From positions 1 to 45,328 of the forward strand of contig JAHEEN010000004.1 of NCBI GenBank assembly GCA_024640685.1: a DNA stretch of 45,328 bases, in the 5' to 3' direction. Below, piece after piece: positions 3,749 through 34,128 of this stretch. The notes under the pieces were generated by a model. It made no database searches. It saw only the letters and a list, made by a program, of their open reading frames with translations, and was not told where the DNA came from. The stretch is from Rhodospirillaceae bacterium. Lineage in GTDB: Bacteria > Pseudomonadota > Gammaproteobacteria > Steroidobacterales > Rariloculaceae. Position numbers and translations under genes: made by a program. Position 1 is the first letter of the stretch. Each line of letters opens with the position of its first letter.

Positions 3749-4750
3749 CTACTGGAGAAATCGCGAGGCGTTCTCCGGATCGCAGTTGTAGCCGTGCAGC
3801 GTCAGGTGCGGTGAGTACTGCCACTGCAGGCTGCCGCTGAACGGCTCGGCCAAATAAACCGGGTCTTCTACGAAGACGTCGATCGTCATGCGATTGCCGT
3901 CGCCGGTCAATGCGTAACGCTCGATGGTGTGCTTTTGGTTGCTCGACGGCACGCCTTGCCCCGTGACCGACTGCTGCTCGGCGAACGCGACAGTGTCGAC
4001 GACGAGGGCATTGTCTTCCCAGCGGCCGATCGAATGGCCTTGCGGCGTCGGTTCGATATCGTCCGGATGTCCTCGGCCGTCCATATAGACGGTTCGTACG
4101 GCATCGAAGAACTCGCTGCGGATCGTCACGACATCGTCACCGAGCTCGATCCCGCTGAGGTAGAGCACGTTCGACATGACGATTCGCGGCGACTGCGGCG
4201 CAACGCACTCGACCGGACGCATGTCGGTCAAGTAGCTGTAGTCGGCTTTTGCGCGCTGGCCGGCGGGCGTCAGCGCCGTCGCGTTCAAAGCATCGGAGAA
4301 CGCCGAGATCGACTCCGGCACGCCTCGCCAGACGCCCGCGATCGTATCGGTCGTTGCGTCGCGCTGCTCGGGTGCGCTGTGGACCTGCGCTAGAACCGTG
4401 CCGTCCTGCTTCGTCAACGACAGCAAGATGACGCCGTAGTATCCGGCGCGTTTGTCCGGGTGGCCGCGCACAGCGACGATATCTCCCGGTTCCAGCGAGT
4501 CCGGCGTCCAGCCGCTGCGCGCCATGATCGGCGTCGCGCCGGTCTCGACGAGCCATTCGACGGTTTCGCCGGCCGCGTTGACCGACTCGACCGTGACGTA
4601 GACGTGCGGGTTACGCCAGCCGTACTCGGTCACGACACCTTCGAACGCCGCCACTGAGTTGGCGTCGTAGCCGGCCTCACTGTGATGGGCCGTGGCGGGC
4701 AGACTGGCGAGCGCGCCTGCGAGGGCGCCGAGAATACATCTATAATTCAT
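3749..4750 (-). CDS. DUF6152-type exported two-domain protein (paralogue 1)
   Basis: 333 residues. The signal peptide ends in ATA and the mature chain would start HHSEAGYD. An N-terminal DUF6152 domain of about 100 residues follows, with the shared WRNPHVYVTVE motif and a conserved SLEPGDIVAVRGHPDK segment. A C-terminal domain of about 190 residues carries the motif GHSIGRWEDNALVVDT, which recurs in the other family members here. No enzymatic function is established for the family that I know of. The histidine-rich start and NPH motif suggest metal binding, by inference only. The downstream neighbour converges; upstream the gene is followed at some distance by ligB on the same strand. Confidence 0.8.
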   Translation of the reverse strand: MNYRCILGALAGALASLPATAHHSEAGYDANSVAAFEGVVTEYGWRNPHVYVTVESVNAAGETVEWLVETGATPIMARSGWTPDSLEPGDIVAVRGHPDKRAGYYGVILLSLTKQDGTVLAQVHSAPEQRDATTDTIAGVWRGVPESISAFSDALNATALTPAGQRAKADYSYLTDMRPVECVAPQSPRIVMSNVLYLSGIELGDDVVTIRSEFFDAVRTVYMDGRGHPDDIEPTPQGHSIGRWEDNALVVDTVAFAEQQSVTGQGVPSSNQKHTIERYALTGDGNRMTIDVFVEDPVYLAEPFSGSLQWQYSPHLTLHGYNCDPENASRFLQ

Positions 4751-6249: not shown

Positions 6250-6483
6250 ATGAACGCGATGACGAAGCCGCACTGCCAGGCTGCAATCGATTCGAACGAG
6301 TGCCGTTGGCTCGAGCGCAAGGCCGTCGAGCTTGCGCGCGAGCTGAACTGCCCGCTGCCGGATGCGCTCGTTGCGGCGCGCTGCGAGTTCGAGAGTCTGA
6401 AATCGCGTCCGAAGGCGCCGGTCGTTGCGCTTCTCGATTGGCAGGCCCGGCGCTCGCTCAGTTCTCGGGAAGCGAGCAGTTGA
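6250..6483 (+). CDS. Small hypothetical protein
   Basis: 77 residues, unrecognised, soluble, with three cysteines (two in the first 18 residues) and a helical, charged middle (WLERKAVELARELNCPLPDALVAARCEF). ATG 6250 is favoured over the upstream GTG 6232 because GGGAAG lies five bases before it. The gene diverges from ligA and its 3' end overlaps the end of the convergent DUF6152-type gene by 26 bases. It could be a genuine small protein, or a chance frame. The good ribosome site and helix-like residue pattern are the arguments for keeping it. Confidence 0.45.
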   Translation: MNAMTKPHCQAAIDSNECRWLERKAVELARELNCPLPDALVAARCEFESLKSRPKAPVVALLDWQARRSLSSREASS

Positions 6484-7462
6484 ACGGCTTGATCTGCTCG
6501 CCCGGAATCCAGACGAAAGCCTCTCGCATCGTCGCGGTGCCGTCGAAAATACGCGGGTCGACGACCTCGGTCTGGTAGTTCAGGCGGCGACCGTCTTCGC
6601 TGACTGTGAAGCGTTCGACGATCTCTGCCGTGGGGCTGAACGGCGTGCCGAGATCGTCGAAATACTCGGCGCTGACGCGGCTCGTGCGCACGACGAGCGT
6701 GTTGCCCTCCCATTGTCCCGTCGAGTAGCCGTAGTGGCTCGTGGGTTGGCCCGCGGGGTTCGCAGCGCCCTGCATGTGAATCGTCCGCCGGCCGTCCCAT
6801 TCCTCGAGCCTGAGCTCTATCGTGTCGCCTTGATCGGCGAACTGGATCGGATACGGGCTGAACATCATCGCCGGCATGCCGGGCGGCTCGCAGCGCAGCG
6901 CCGGATCGTCGACGAGCGGATCCCAGCCACCGCGCGCGTTCAATGCAAACTCCGTAAACGGCAGATGCGGCTCCTCACGCACTTGCTCGGCGCTCCAGAC
7001 ACGAAAGATGCCACTGGCCTCACGCTCGCCCTCGGCGACCGCCGCATTCGAGAACGGCGCCGGCGGCACGTTGCGGCCAATCGCAAGCGCACGCTGCGGC
7101 CATAACGGGACCTCGGTGCCGTCGGCCAGCGTCATCGTGTACGCAGCCATCGCTGGTAGGCCGGTGCGCGACAGCGCGCCGAGCAATGTCACGCGGTCGC
7201 CGACCGAGACGATGTCGGCGCTGTAGCCGGCGCGAGCGAGGCTGTTCGGCGAGCCGGACTCGGCAGTCCAAGTCTCGGTGACGCCGCTCGCCGAGACGCG
7301 CTGCAATGTCAAAACGACATGCGGATTGCGCCAAAACACGGAGACGACGTCACCCTCGATCGTGCCGAGGTTCTCGGTGTCATAGGCGACCGTCGTCGCA
7401 TGATGGCCGTGCGCCAGCGGTACGATCAGCGTCATTAGGGCAAGCAATGTCGTGCGGATCAT
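6458..7462 (-). CDS. DUF6152-type exported two-domain protein (paralogue 2)
   Basis: 334 residues with the same layout as the protein at 3749-4750. The signal peptide ends in AHG and the mature chain would start HHATTVAYD. The DUF6152 domain has FWRNPHVVLTLQ and SVGDRVTLLGALSR. The C-terminal domain has GYSTGQWEGNTLVVRT in place of the consensus GHSxGRWxxDxLVVxT, and a late NYQTEVVDPRIF segment. Paralogues 1 and 2 flank the ligAB genes, and this copy lies 21 bases downstream of the YncE-like gene on the same strand, so those two are probably co-transcribed. Function unknown; metal binding is an inference from the histidines. Confidence 0.8.
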   Translation of the reverse strand: MIRTTLLALMTLIVPLAHGHHATTVAYDTENLGTIEGDVVSVFWRNPHVVLTLQRVSASGVTETWTAESGSPNSLARAGYSADIVSVGDRVTLLGALSRTGLPAMAAYTMTLADGTEVPLWPQRALAIGRNVPPAPFSNAAVAEGEREASGIFRVWSAEQVREEPHLPFTEFALNARGGWDPLVDDPALRCEPPGMPAMMFSPYPIQFADQGDTIELRLEEWDGRRTIHMQGAANPAGQPTSHYGYSTGQWEGNTLVVRTSRVSAEYFDDLGTPFSPTAEIVERFTVSEDGRRLNYQTEVVDPRIFDGTATMREAFVWIPGEQIKPFNCSLPEN

Positions 7463-24065: not shown

Positions 24066-25130
24066 CTAGTTCAACTCTTGCTCTACTTCACATGCGTAGC
24101 TATTAACGGATATCTCAGGTCTCCATATCCATGCCGTTGTTTGAGTGACCGGGGACTCCAACATGACTGGATCGGTCACTTCGATCTCATAGTCTAGTCT
24201 GCTTCCATCCGCGCTTGGCCTGAAAATCTCGAGCAGCTCAATCTCGGAACTTACCGGCAGCTCATACGTGCTCTCGGTGATATGGTTAGTTCGAATGACT
24301 AAGGCATCGCCATCCCAGCGACCGACCGAATGTCCCATTAGGGTATGCTCCTGCGGCACCTCTGCTTCGTCCGGATTCATATAGATAATCCGCCTAGAAT
24401 CGTTTTCCTCAAAGTGAATCACGATGTTCTCGCCATCTCGGACGAATTCCATCGGTAGCGGATTATTCATGAGTCTGGGCATATTCCAGTCCGTGCAACC
24501 AAGAATAAAATTGGCGGCTGGGTCCCATTCATCACGAACCGCTCGACCTTGAGCAGTAAATGGAAAGCTGTCAATTTCCTCATTGTTAAAGATCCCTCCC
24601 TCGTCAACTCGCAGCCTTTCTCCAATCCGGCTCCAGACCCGAAAGATCCCGTCGGCAGTTCGCCGCGCTATCTCGACGGCCTCCTCGTCGTAAGCGCCTT
24701 CCAGAAGTTCAACATCACCGTTAGCGGAAAAATACTCTCTGGCCCCAAGAGTGAGCAGAACCTCCTCTCCACTCGCCAACAGTATGTTCCTCGCAAACAT
24801 CTCTGGGCGGTTCCGCATCGACTGATCGCCGAGAATCTTGACGTTATCGCCGATGCTGAGGATTTCGCTGGTAATACCCTGGGCCCTAAGAACACCCAGC
24901 GCTCCAGACTCGACATGCCATCGGATCGTCTCGCCTCGTTCATCCTGAACATCAAGTTCAAAGATTGTGTGAGGATTCCTCCACTGAATTGCTCTAATTA
25001 CGCCTTCGATCTCTACTTTCACATCTGGATTGAAGAAAGCACGAGTCGAGTGATGAGCCAAGGATTCCGAAGGAAGGAGTAGAACCACAAATATCGCTAT
25101 GGATGACGCCTCGGCTCGATAGCAAAACAT
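24066..25130 (-). CDS. DUF6152-type exported two-domain protein (paralogue 3)
   Basis: 354 residues with the same two-domain plan as the proteins at 3749 and 6458. The signal peptide ends in SLA, giving a mature start HHSTRAFF. The DUF6152 part has IQWRNPHTIFELDV and SIGDNVKILGDQS, and the C-terminal domain has GHSVGRWDGDALVIRT. It ends with EVEQELN. Unlike paralogues 1 and 2, its codons are much less GC-biased, so it may have been acquired separately. It lies alone on the minus strand between a lipoprotein and an amidotransferase, with long spacers. Function unknown. Confidence 0.78.
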   Translation of the reverse strand: MFCYRAEASSIAIFVVLLLPSESLAHHSTRAFFNPDVKVEIEGVIRAIQWRNPHTIFELDVQDERGETIRWHVESGALGVLRAQGITSEILSIGDNVKILGDQSMRNRPEMFARNILLASGEEVLLTLGAREYFSANGDVELLEGAYDEEAVEIARRTADGIFRVWSRIGERLRVDEGGIFNNEEIDSFPFTAQGRAVRDEWDPAANFILGCTDWNMPRLMNNPLPMEFVRDGENIVIHFEENDSRRIIYMNPDEAEVPQEHTLMGHSVGRWDGDALVIRTNHITESTYELPVSSEIELLEIFRPSADGSRLDYEIEVTDPVMLESPVTQTTAWIWRPEISVNSYACEVEQELN

Positions 25131-30094: not shown

Positions 30095-31402
30095 TCAGTC
30101 GGGATCGGCATCGAGTGCGGCTATCTTGCGATACAACGCGCGCTCGCTGATGCCGAGGCGCTGCGCCAGCTCACGGCGCCCGACCTTGGTCGTTGCGAGC
30201 ACTTTTCGCAGATAACGTCGTTCGTGCAGATCGAGCGGCTCGACATCGACGGTCGGTCCGATCGACGCGGTTGCTTCACTGTGCCGTTGAAGCGGAGGTA
30301 GATGAGTGACGTCGATGCAGTCGTCGTCGGCCAGCAACAGCGCACGCTCAATGATGTTTCTGAGCTCACGCACGTTGCCTGGGAAGTCGTGCTGCTCGAG
30401 CGCCGCAAGTGCCTCATCGCTGATACGCATATTGTTTGCGCCGAGACGTCTGAGTATCGACGTCGCTAGTCGCTCGATATCCTCGACGCGCTCGCGCAGT
30501 GGCGGCAGCTCGACCTCCAGCACGTTCAGTCGGTAGTACAGATCCTCGCGAAACGTACCAGCTGCGACCATGTCCCGCAGGGATCGATGGGTCGCACAGA
30601 TCAAGCGAAAGTCGGCTTCCTTCCACTCGGTGCCACCGACGGGTCGGTAGCGACGCGTCTCGAGTAGCCGCAACAGCTTGACCTGCTCGGCCGGCGGCAC
30701 CTCGCCGATCTCATCGAGAAAGAGCGTGCCGCCGTTGGCAGCATCGACGAGGCCGTCGCGTCGGCTCGTCGCTCCGGTGAAGGCGCCTTTCTCGTGCCCG
30801 AATAGCTCACTTTCAAATAATGTCTCGGGCAAGCCGGCGCACTCGACCGGAACGAACGGCTTGTCGCGGCGTTGGCTCAAGCGATGAATAGTTTGCGCGA
30901 CGAGCTCCTTGCCGGTCCCGGTCTCGCCGAGCAGCATCACGGTCGTTTCCGATGGCGCCGCGCGCTCGACGAGCGCGAGCATGTGCTGAAATGCAGGCGA
31001 CTCGCCGACGAGTCGATCGGCCGCGGAGTCGACGCTGCCCGCGTCCGATGGTCGCATCCGCTCTAAGAAATACTTGATCTGACCGCTCGTCGGGTCCTTG
31101 ACGGGCCACATCTCGACGTTGACGTACTCCTTGCCGCGCGGCGTATGGTGAATGTGCAGCACGCGCGAGTTTCTACCCGTTGTCTGACTGTGCTTCAGCG
31201 GGCAAGTTTCACCGGCAAGGTCACACGGTTGCGTATAGCCATGGGATACCTCATAGCAGTGGTGCCGCCCTTGATCGATGTGATCCCCATAGGTATCGCG
31301 ATAGGCGTCGTTGGCGACGAGCACGCGGTAGTCGAGTCCGAGCAGGATCGCCGGCTCATCGAGGCAGTTCAGTAGCCCCTTCAGATCGTCCGAGTCGGTC
31401 AT
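30095..31402 (-). CDS. Sigma-54-dependent activator with Cys-rich PAS domain and Fis-type HTH
   Basis: 435 residues. A PAS-like sensor (about 1-115) carries three clustered cysteines (49, 60 and 67) and two adjacent histidines in the stretch [14 protein letters not shown]. The AAA+ domain has Walker [10 protein letters not shown], the sigma-54 contact loop GAFTGA (about 206-211) and Walker [13 protein letters not shown] Fis-type helix-turn-helix ([18 protein letters not shown]) ends the protein. It activates sigma-54 promoters from upstream sites. An in-frame ATG at 31420 would add six residues, but it lies inside a palindromic operator, so ATG 31402 is preferred; neither has a good ribosome site. 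The cysteines suggest redox or metal-cofactor sensing (inference). Confidence 0.87.
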
Positions 31403-31405
31403 AGC

Positions 31406-31452
31406 TGCCAATTTTGGCATAGTCTGCCAAATTTGACATGCCTGAAACGGCA
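31406..31452. promoter_or_regulatory. Three TGCC-N6-GGCA dyads, candidate enhancer sites for the sigma-54 activator
   Basis: TGCCAATTTTGGCA (31406-31419), TGCCAAATTTGACA (31425-31438) and TGCCTGAAACGGCA (31439-31452) share the pattern TGCC-N6-GGCA; the middle copy has one mismatch. They lie 65 to 112 bases upstream of the -24 element of the sigma-54 promoter, a usual distance for enhancer sites, and also overlap the start of the activator gene, which would allow autoregulation. Confidence 0.6.
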
Positions 31453-31514
31453 GAAATGGCTGGCTAGGTGTCAGCTCCTCGATCTAACTTGCTGTTTTTA
31501 ATAGGCACGAGAGA

Positions 31515-31531
31515 TTGGCACGAAACACGCA
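31515..31531 (+). promoter_or_regulatory. Sigma-54 promoter (-24/-12)
   Basis: TTGGCACGAAACACGCA matches the -24/-12 consensus: GG at 31517-31518 and GC at 31529-31530, separated by exactly ten bases, with the favoured TGGCACG at the -24 side. The -12 side reads ACGC instead of TTGC. Transcription should start near 31542 and run towards the small peptide gene. Confidence 0.65.
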
Positions 31532-31604
31532 TTAGACAGCATAGAGGTTAACAGACCGGTCCGGCGATTCCTGCTGCCGGCGGTCACGACGACAGGAGAC
31601 AACG

Positions 31605-31694
31605 ATGTTACAACTCAAGAGCATGATCGGGCTGATGGTCTACACCGCAGTATTGGGCGTCGCCGTGACAGCTGGCGCCATCCTGATGGCCTGA
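31605..31694 (+). CDS. 29-residue single-helix membrane peptide under sigma-54 control
   Basis: 29 codons plus TGA. The peptide begins MLQLKSMIGLMVYTAVLG and continues with a glycine/alanine-rich hydrophobic run to the end, so almost its whole length would form one membrane helix with a short basic N-terminal tail. AGGAG lies six bases before the ATG. It is the only frame between a sigma-54 promoter (about 63 bases of leader) and a strong terminator, so the transcript appears dedicated to it. I do not recognise a family. It could regulate or stabilise a membrane complex, as other microproteins do, but nothing identifies the partner. The RNA itself could also be the functional product. Confidence 0.65.
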   Translation: MLQLKSMIGLMVYTAVLGVAVTAGAILMA

Positions 31695-31759
31695 GATCGA
31701 GCCCCCGGCCGCTGCCAGCGTGTGGCGGTTTCGATCCCGAATCCAATGATCCCCCATTG

Positions 31760-31787
31760 CCGGCGCATGGAAGCGCCGGTTTTTTTT
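31760..31787 (+). terminator. Rho-independent terminator of the small-peptide transcript
   Basis: CCGGCGC and GCGCCGG form a perfect seven-pair GC stem around a six-base loop, followed by eight T (31780-31787). It lies 65 bases after the peptide stop codon. Confidence 0.85.
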
Positions 31788-31867: not shown

Positions 31868-32611
31868 TCAGGCCGCGCGTCGGTGTCCAAGCCAGTCGGC
31901 GAGTGTGTCGGCGCCGCCAATCCGCTCGCCATCGACGAAAATCTGTGGATAGCTGAGGTCCTGCGAGACCGCACGCAGTGTCCGGTCGCTGAAGTCGCGA
32001 TTGAGCACGAGCTCGTCGAACTCGATACCAGCGTCGCGCAGCATGCCTTTCGCACGGACACAATGCGGGCAACCGTCGCGTGTAAAAACTGCAACGTCGA
32101 GCGGTTTCTGCGCGCTGGGCGCGAGATACTCGAGCATCGTATCGGCGTCGGAGGCGACGAACGGGTCGCCGGGCTCTTGCGGTTCGATGAACATCTTCTC
32201 GATGACGCCGTTTTTGACGAGCATCGAGTAGCGCCACGATCGCTGTCCGAAGCCGAGGTCTTCCTTGCCGACGAGCATGCCCATGCCGCGCGTGAAGTCG
32301 CCGTTGCCGTCAGGCAGGAACGTCACGTTGTCCGCATGTTGAGCGAGCTTCCACTCGTTCATGACGAATGCGTCGTTGACCGAGACGCAGACGATGTCAT
32401 CGACGCCGTGTTGGCGAAACTCGCGTGCGAGCTGATTGTAGCGAGGCACGTGCGATGACGAGCACGTCGGCGTAAATGCGCCCGGTAGCGAGAAAACGAC
32501 GACAGTTTTGCCGCCGAAGATGCCGTCGCTCGTGCGCTCGATCCAGGCGTGGTCATCGCGCGTCTTAAATGTGCAGTCCGGGATGCGGGTCCCTTCGCGG
32601 TTCTCGAACAT
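31868..32611 (-). CDS. Peroxiredoxin-glutaredoxin fusion protein (hybrid Prx5/Grx)
   Basis: 247 residues. The Prx5-type peroxiredoxin domain (about 1-160) has its peroxidatic cysteine at 50 in PGAFTPTC. The glutaredoxin domain (about 170-247) has the redox pair CPHC at 181-184 and a late [14 protein letters not shown] glutathione-site motif. Such fusions reduce hydrogen peroxide and alkyl hydroperoxides using glutathione directly. The gene lies between its own terminator and dps, on the same strand as dps with only 36 bases between them, and oxyR follows divergently. OxyR control is therefore likely but is inferred from context. Confidence 0.92.
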
Positions 32612-32647
32612 TGTGAATCCTCCGAGTTTCAGTCGTTGTAAATCGAG

Positions 32648-33118
32648 TTAGTGGTCGAGCATGCTGCGCAGCATCCACGCGTTCTTCTCGTGGATCTGCA
32701 TGCGTTGCGTTAGAAGGTCCGCGGTTGGCTCGTCGTTGGCGCGCTCCGCGGCTGGAAACGCTTCACGGGCCGTGCGCACGACGGCTTCTTGGCCGGCGAC
32801 GAGCGCGCGAATCATGTCCTCGGCATTCTCGTCGCCGCTGGCCTCGTCGACCGAAGCGAGCTGCGCGAACGCCGCATACGAGCCGGGTGCCTTGACGCCG
32901 AGGGTGCGGATACGTTCGGCGATCTCGTCGACGGCTGTCGCAAGCTCCGTGTACTGCGTCTCGAACATCGTATGCAGTGTGTTGAAGTGCGGACCCGTCA
33001 CGTTCCAGTGATAGTTGTGGGTCTTCAAATACAGCGTGTAGCTATCGGCAAGCAGCCTGGACAGACCGCCTGCTATAGCCTCGCGGTCCATGGTGTCGAT
33101 GCCGATTTCAATATTCAT
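32648..33118 (-). CDS. dps: Dps-family DNA-protecting ferritin-like protein
   Basis: 156 residues of the Dps four-helix fold. The inter-subunit ferroxidase site is visible: His in [13 protein letters not shown] and the acidic cluster in [14 protein letters not shown]. The chain also has [22 protein letters not shown] at the C-terminus. Dps shells bind iron and use hydrogen peroxide to oxidise it, limiting hydroxyl-radical damage. GGAGGAG lies five bases before the ATG. The peroxiredoxin gene follows closely on the same strand. OxyR is encoded divergently across a 104-base AT-rich spacer, the classical place for OxyR to act. Confidence 0.92.
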
Positions 33119-33222
33119 CTGTGCTCCTCCGGGTCGATTCTGTCGATGCGGAGTAGTCTAGATTGAGTATAAAAATCTGTAAAACAGAATAAATAGGAAA
33201 TAATATGCTATAAAAACGATCA
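33119..33222. promoter_or_regulatory. Divergent dps/oxyR control region
   Basis: A 104-base spacer that is strikingly AT-rich for this genome in its right-hand 60 bases. ATAG and CTAT elements typical of OxyR sites are present near 33193-33210, but not in the exact ATAG-N7-CTAT spacing, so a site is only suggested. Promoters for both genes must lie here. Confidence 0.4.
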
Positions 33223-34128
33223 ATGCGCATCCCGACTGTCAAGCAGATCCAGTATTTCCTCGCGCTCGCCGAGCACGAGCACTTCGGCCGCGCGGCGGCG
33301 GCGTCGTTCGTCTCGCAGTCCGCATTCAGCGCTGCGATCAAGGAGCTCGAAGCGACGTTAGGTGTGCAACTCGTCGATCGGACGAATCGCTCGGTCACGG
33401 TGACTGCGATGGGGCAACGCATTGCGGCGCAGGGCCGCCATTGCGTGGAGGCGCTCGAGGAACTCGTCGAGATCGCTCAAGGGCAGCGCAATCCGCTCGA
33501 AGGGGAGTTGCGGCTCGGCGTCATTCCGACGATTGCGCCATTCCTGCTGCCGACGCTGCTGCCATTGCTGCGGCAACGCTATCCGAAGCTACGGGCACTT
33601 TTGACCGAGGCGCAGACCGTGCCGCTGCACGAGAGCTTGTTGAACGGCGAGCTCGACGTGCTGCTGCTCGCGTTGCCGTTCGAGCTGCGCGGCACGGAAA
33701 CGAAAGCGCTGTTTGACGACAGGTTCTTGCTGGCCTTTCGCGACGGGACGACGCTAATCGATGCCGAGCGCTACCGTCTCGAGTCCGTCCCGGCAGAGTC
33801 CGTGTTGCTGCTGGGCGAAGGGCACTGCTTGCGCGGCCATGCGCTCGAGGCGTGTCGGTTGCGAGGCACAGAGAAACTGAGCCCGGTCTCGGCGACGAGC
33901 CTTTTGACGCTCGTCGAGATGGTCGATGCCGACCTCGGCATCACGTTTTTGCCGGAAATGTCTTTGGGCTCGACGTTGCTAGCGCACACGCAGTTGCGTC
34001 TGCAGCCGATACCAGGTGGGGGCGAGCGAACGATTGGGCTTGCGTGGCGCAAGGGCAGTGCCCGTGCCGCGGAGTTTGCGCTTCTGGGCGAGTTCATCGC
34101 CGCGCACGCCGGGCTAGATTCTACATAA
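33223..34128 (+). CDS. oxyR: Peroxide-sensing LysR-type regulator OxyR
   Basis: 301 residues. The N-terminal winged helix (TVKQIQYFLALAEHEHFGRAAAASFVSQSAFSAAIKELE) is followed by a LysR effector domain. The redox cysteines are present: Cys202 in GEGHCLRGHALEAC and Cys211, with the same nine-residue spacing as Cys199/Cys208 in E. coli OxyR. Peroxide would form the disulfide and switch on targets. Its divergent neighbours, dps and the peroxiredoxin fusion, are typical targets. It differs from the E. coli protein elsewhere, but the HCLRxHAL-xxC motif is decisive. Confidence 0.93.
   Translation: MRIPTVKQIQYFLALAEHEHFGRAAAASFVSQSAFSAAIKELEATLGVQLVDRTNRSVTVTAMGQRIAAQGRHCVEALEELVEIAQGQRNPLEGELRLGVIPTIAPFLLPTLLPLLRQRYPKLRALLTEAQTVPLHESLLNGELDVLLLALPFELRGTETKALFDDRFLLAFRDGTTLIDAERYRLESVPAESVLLLGEGHCLRGHALEACRLRGTEKLSPVSATSLLTLVEMVDADLGITFLPEMSLGSTLLAHTQLRLQPIPGGGERTIGLAWRKGSARAAEFALLGEFIAAHAGLDST

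Follow-up and report, generated by a model that had tools for sequence, protein, structure and literature searches.

What does a sigma-54 activator serve when the only transcription unit divergent from it holds a 29-codon frame and a terminator, with no large membrane enzyme? The question is raised by one locus in the window, by which we mean the whole 45,328-nucleotide stretch of DNA that was analysed. The initial annotation described this locus as a complete sigma-54 unit, and reading the frames and motifs in the window confirmed that observation: the sigma-54 promoter with exact GG-N10-GC spacing, the 29-codon frame with its ribosome site, the GC-rich terminator and the divergent activator gene are all present (Table 1). 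The three upstream dyads that it listed are also there, except that only two are exact and the middle one carries a mismatch. The activator gene may alternatively start at an internal ATG at 31402.

Table 1. Features of the sigma-54 unit and its activator, in window coordinates.
Feature	Position	Strand	Description
FisR-type sigma-54 activator (by sequence)	30095..31420	-	Cys-PAS (C55, C66, C73), AAA+ with GAFTGA, Fis-type HTH
Upstream activator dyad 1, TGCCAATTTTGGCA	31406..31419		Exact TGCC-N6-GGCA; overlaps the first codons of the activator gene
Upstream activator dyad 2, TGCCAAATTTGACA	31425..31438		Read directly; one mismatch to TGCC-N6-GGCA
Upstream activator dyad 3, TGCCTGAAACGGCA	31439..31452		Exact TGCC-N6-GGCA
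Sigma-54 (-24/-12) promoter, TGGCACGAAACACGCA	31516..31531	+	Exact GG-N10-GC; transcription start predicted near 31542
Ribosome binding site, AGGAGA	31594..31599	+	Start codon 5 bases downstream
29-residue single-span membrane microprotein, MLQLKSMIGLMVYTAVLGVAVTAGAILMA	31605..31694	+	ATG at 31605, stop at 31692-31694; 29 codons
Intrinsic terminator, GCCGGCGC-N6-GCGCCGGT	31759..31787	+	GC-rich 8-pair stem at 31759-31780, then a T run

Taken by itself, the sigma-54 motif is at chance level, with 11 matches in the window versus 10.5 expected and, across the genome, 43 strong matches to the pattern TGGCAYRN5YGCW versus 67 for a reversed control pattern, so we set it aside as stand-alone evidence. 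Terminator-like sites number 4 in 1.7 kb, against 1.2 expected. The combined arrangement is well above chance, recurring in two further genomes of the GTDB family. As we read the sequences, the case for the unit rests on this conservation and not on the sigma-54 motif.

The activator is best classified as a FisR-type sigma-54 activator. It matches PF00158 (Sigma54_activat) with an E-value of 1.2e-68 and PF02954 with 23.3 bits, against a cut-off of 22; its PAS domain scores weakly in the domain search, and the GAFTGA motif is present in the sequence. The N-terminal PAS domain contains three cysteines spaced by 11 and 7 residues, and this spacing is identical in the 102 extracted relatives that have the Cys motif, including the FisR of Cupriavidus pinatubonensis, where the cysteines fall at 53, 64 and 71. 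A PAS search of genome contigs returned 322 relatives, and the 80 best of these were retained as FisR loci. In the loci examined, the gene divergent from FisR is mostly a persulfide dioxygenase, otherwise SQR, CydAB or others. A quick tree places the activator among FisR sequences, in a 12-member clade (SH-aLRT 100) made up of four peptide-linked FisRs and eight that drive dioxygenase genes, and the peptide was not found near any of these eight. Within the same tree the FisRs of two peptide-bearing genomes, G009 and G639, are sisters (SH-aLRT 99), while the exact position of the window activator is unsure because of its long branch. The initial annotation knew of no named counterpart for the circuit. 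For the regulator this fails, given the FisR-type Cys-PAS with the cysteine spacing of the C. pinatubonensis protein, but it stands for the microprotein target, and we found no published case of a FisR-controlled microprotein in the open-licence literature.

Membership of the FisR family also points to a signal for a microprotein that is otherwise anonymous. In two papers that cite Li et al. 2017, the C. pinatubonensis FisR is described as sensing sulfane sulfur and driving sulfide-oxidising genes (PMC7315123, PMC9495516), and the review among them reports a tetrasulfide between its Cys53 and Cys64 (PMC9495516). By analogy with the family, the window activator would probably respond to sulfane sulfur as well. 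In Acinetobacter, sulfide induction depends on FisR, and that FisR is still sulfide-responsive although it does not have the regulatory cysteines (PMC7315123), so the link between cysteines and signal is not a strict one.

The upstream dyads are candidate sites of FisR action. Exact TGCC-Nx-GGCA dyads with spacers of 4-8 occur within 260 bp upstream of 50 of the best 80 of the 322 FisR relatives, compared with 2.2 loci in shuffles, a count that overstates independence because many of these loci come from closely related Burkholderia; the remaining 30 have no exact dyad. N6 is the commonest spacer, found in 34 of the exact dyads. The dyad is our candidate for the FisR operator. Dyad 1 is kept as CTGCC-N5/6-GGCA in three peptide-bearing genomes (G002, G009 and G639), and next to the activators of G002 and G009 it takes the form CTGCC-N6-GGCAG.

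Several other FisR loci have short products or transcripts of their own. In L043 and L045, a FisR-linked sigma-54 promoter is followed by a small membrane protein and then CydA, and some FisRs thus appear to control a bd-type oxidase; the small protein of L043 has 59 aa, is CydP-like by eye and has no Pfam match. In L133, a 29-residue single-span frame that is unrelated to ours, MCLDSLTIAGIVASLTITLLLFVFGRKGA, lies ~205 bases after TGGCACATGGATTGCT. In L105, from a Sedimenticola thiotaurini MAG, a strong terminator lies ~145 nt after the FisR-linked sigma-54 site TGGCACGATCAATGCA, no convincing frame is found between them, and the transcript is possibly a FisR-controlled small RNA.

Among the 22 genomes of the GTDB family, the Cys-PAS activator is present in 3: the window genome, G002 from its own genus, where the activator is 60% identical, and G009 from elsewhere in the family, at 57%. 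Each of the three carries the dyad, the sigma-54 site and a membrane peptide of 29-32 residues. Two expectations of the initial annotation were borne out here: regulator, dyad, promoter and peptide occur together in relatives, and the short frame is kept in the two relatives that have the activator. Sigma-54 sites are found at the matching position in G002 (TGGCACGAATCACGCA), G009 (TGGCATGCGACTTGCT) and G639 (TGGCACGGAACTCGCA), and the short frames divergent from the activator are MVHWQPVIALMVFVALFGTVMTAVALLMA in G002 and MRLVKSMMFMMICTGVLGLWITAVALGIGAGG in G009. The G009 unit, too, seems to hold a single gene and is followed by a convergent one. In G002 the stop codon of the peptide overlaps the start codon of a gene for a DUF2202 protein, and the peptide of G639 lies within a FisR-driven operon in the order rhodanese, persulfide dioxygenase, peptide, peroxiredoxin, TauE. 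A peroxiredoxin is also found near the window unit, which is adjoined at 31868-34128 by genes for a peroxiredoxin-glutaredoxin fusion, a Dps-like ferritin and a LysR regulator (OxyR-like by eye).

The family comprises nine copies of the peptide from eight genomes, the window genome among them. A profile built on the three peptides found first detected a 29-residue member in L042 (E 3e-7 among 10,306 ORFs), which is apparently the same genome as G639. A profile search also turned up a copy in G004 (E 4e-8), flanked by a TetR-like gene and a DUF6152 gene; the Cys-PAS activator was not found in that genome. Wider searches added one copy each in G619 and G635, where the peptide follows a gene for a PLP-dependent enzyme (PALP being its only Pfam match), and two copies in G689, which flank an amidase gene (G689:C268; L194, L204). 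In a class-wide peptide search, matches outside the window genome were weak (E above 0.004) and were not accepted, nor was a candidate in G057 (E 2.9e-4). A candidate in G665 (L195) was rejected because there a related amidase starts with the similar helix. Several of the peptide loci have no adjoining FisR, and no partner gene is consistent across them, the neighbours being DUF2202, peroxiredoxin and TauE, DUF6152, the PLP enzyme or the amidase. The PLP enzyme upstream of the peptide in G619 and G635 (L191, L192) resembles D-cysteine desulfhydrase, which again hints at sulfide. In the window, three proteins related by eye are encoded at 3749-4750, 6458-7462 and 24066-25130 (minus), the last of which was confirmed as DUF6152, as in the gene that follows the peptide in G004. 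No Pfam or NCBIfam family matches the peptide, and a PDB profile search gave a chance-level match to an antenna subunit (E 4.3). Taken together, the comparisons reveal what would be a small family of membrane peptides, so far without a name, that is linked to genes of sulfur and thiol metabolism.

In leave-one-out profiles, the nine members score 20-53 bits, and in no case does any of 5000 shuffles matched for composition attain the real score (for the window peptide, 38.4 bits, where the best shuffle gives 19.0). General hydrophobicity of the helix contributes part of this signal, although the shuffles control for composition. In nearly every pair of peptide genes, conservation is lowest at the third codon position, a weaker test than the shuffles because a membrane helix favours T at the second position, which partly raises conservation. 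Conservation along the peptide also has a helical period, with a peak at 98 degrees (permutation p = 0.0006), and the conserved face consists of M11, T14/A15, G18, T22 and A25. Conservation on one face is the pattern that helix packing on another helix would be expected to leave. On these grounds a conserved peptide, rather than an RNA alone, seems the right description of the product.

The initial annotation also proposed that the circuit is dedicated to the peptide. In the window genome this claim survives: exact dyads within 250 bp upstream are found at only 1 of the 43 strong sigma-54 sites, the one at 31516-31531, and no other dyad match in the assembly (~93% complete, 333 contigs) is arranged as dyad, strong sigma-54 site and gene, which leaves the peptide as the one target that can be recognised here. 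The divergent dioxygenase or SQR promoter that is the hallmark of the FisR operon is absent from the window unit. The persulfide dioxygenase of this genome is encoded on another contig (C78), is 67% identical to that of G639 and has neither dyad nor sigma-54 site upstream. A search for SQR in the window genome did not find it, and in three relatives that have SQR there is no sigma-54 site upstream of it; by eye, the SQR of these relatives adjoins an apparent ArsR-type regulator. As a general property, dedication does not hold, because promoters of the same kind in G002 and G639 also serve other genes.

The peptide may instead be one member of a larger FisR regulon, with further targets behind weak sites or in sequence that the assembly lacks. 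Such targets are conceivable given that 30 of the 80 FisR loci have no exact dyad and that the assembly is incomplete and fragmented, but with exact dyads at no other strong sigma-54 site, a dioxygenase gene free of both elements and no SQR found, we consider a larger regulon unlikely, though well worth keeping in mind. A different account, which we judge quite improbable, makes the peptide a functionless leftover of a decayed FisR operon like that of G639. It draws on the sister relationship of the G009 and G639 FisRs, on the position of the peptide-linked FisRs in a clade that otherwise drives dioxygenase, and on the dioxygenase that the window genome retains elsewhere. Decay would cost the frame, however, and frame, promoter and dyads are intact in three genomes whose regulators share 57-60% identity; the conserved helix face also implies selection.

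Two further alternatives concern what the product does. Type I toxins include short hydrophobic single-span peptides, and the peptide could act as a toxin that damages membranes, or as a stress effector, instead of a subunit-like modulator, but its place within a metabolic operon in G639 and a conserved face that suggests specific packing make this very improbable. Sigma-54 often drives regulatory RNAs such as Qrr, GlmY and CrcZ, and the Sedimenticola locus with a sigma-54 site, a terminator and no convincing frame could be taken to favour a small RNA in which our frame is incidental. We regard this as highly improbable, since the frame alone is clearly conserved within the transcript among relatives while the terminator is not, third codon positions are usually the most variable, and the G002 frame overlaps the start codon of the next gene. 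The small RNA that the initial annotation offered as an alternative product thus loses ground: the transcript has a folding z of -0.71, its Rfam matches are weak and sub-threshold with no family near threshold, and conservation is centred on the frame.

We therefore lean, with some reserve, towards a FisR-type sensor that induces, in response to sulfane sulfur, a single-span peptide packing against a larger membrane protein. On the analogy of Cys53 and Cys64 in FisR, a rise in persulfide or polysulfide would link C55 and C66 through sulfur, and the activator, acting from the TGCC-N6-GGCA dyads, would open the sigma-54 promoter. The short transcript would then yield a 29-residue inner-membrane peptide that has a single membrane-spanning helix and keeps its basic N-tail in the cytoplasm. 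Its conserved face (M11 to A25) would pack on the larger protein and adjust the activity or stability of that partner under sulfur stress. Action on a partner is something we infer from the helix pattern, and any partner that comes to mind, for instance a transporter such as TauE or a respiratory oxidase, is a guess. More tentatively, a sulfane-sulfur sensor may have been rewired so that its sole output is a microprotein of a new family, one that also occurs in dioxygenase, DUF2202, DUF6152, PLP-enzyme and amidase neighbourhoods and might serve as a snap-on regulator of membrane proteins in sulfur stress.

CydX and KdpF are small accessory subunits of ~30 residues with a single helix, co-encoded with their enzyme. 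The window peptide is of similar size, has a single helix and would be expected to pack on a larger protein; it differs in standing alone, with no library family match and no co-operonic large subunit. The GlmY, Qrr and CrcZ circuits are likewise under sigma-54 and have very short transcripts, whereas the conserved product here is probably a peptide. With the C. pinatubonensis FisR, the window activator shares the domain order, the spacing of Cys53/64/71, GAFTGA and a divergent sigma-54 target; in the papers cited above, that FisR targets sulfide-oxidising genes, while the window FisR adjoins a lone microprotein. The FisR of Acinetobacter baumannii is also divergent from a sigma-54 promoter, which is sulfide-induced, but it drives PDO-SQR-TauE-hsd and does not have the regulatory cysteines (PMC7315123), and the window circuit differs in both respects. 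In known FisR circuits, the output consists of enzymes that break down sulfide and persulfide. With a membrane peptide of 29 residues as the adjacent output, this cell may meet reactive sulfur by tuning a membrane protein that it already has, instead of producing an enzyme for detoxification.
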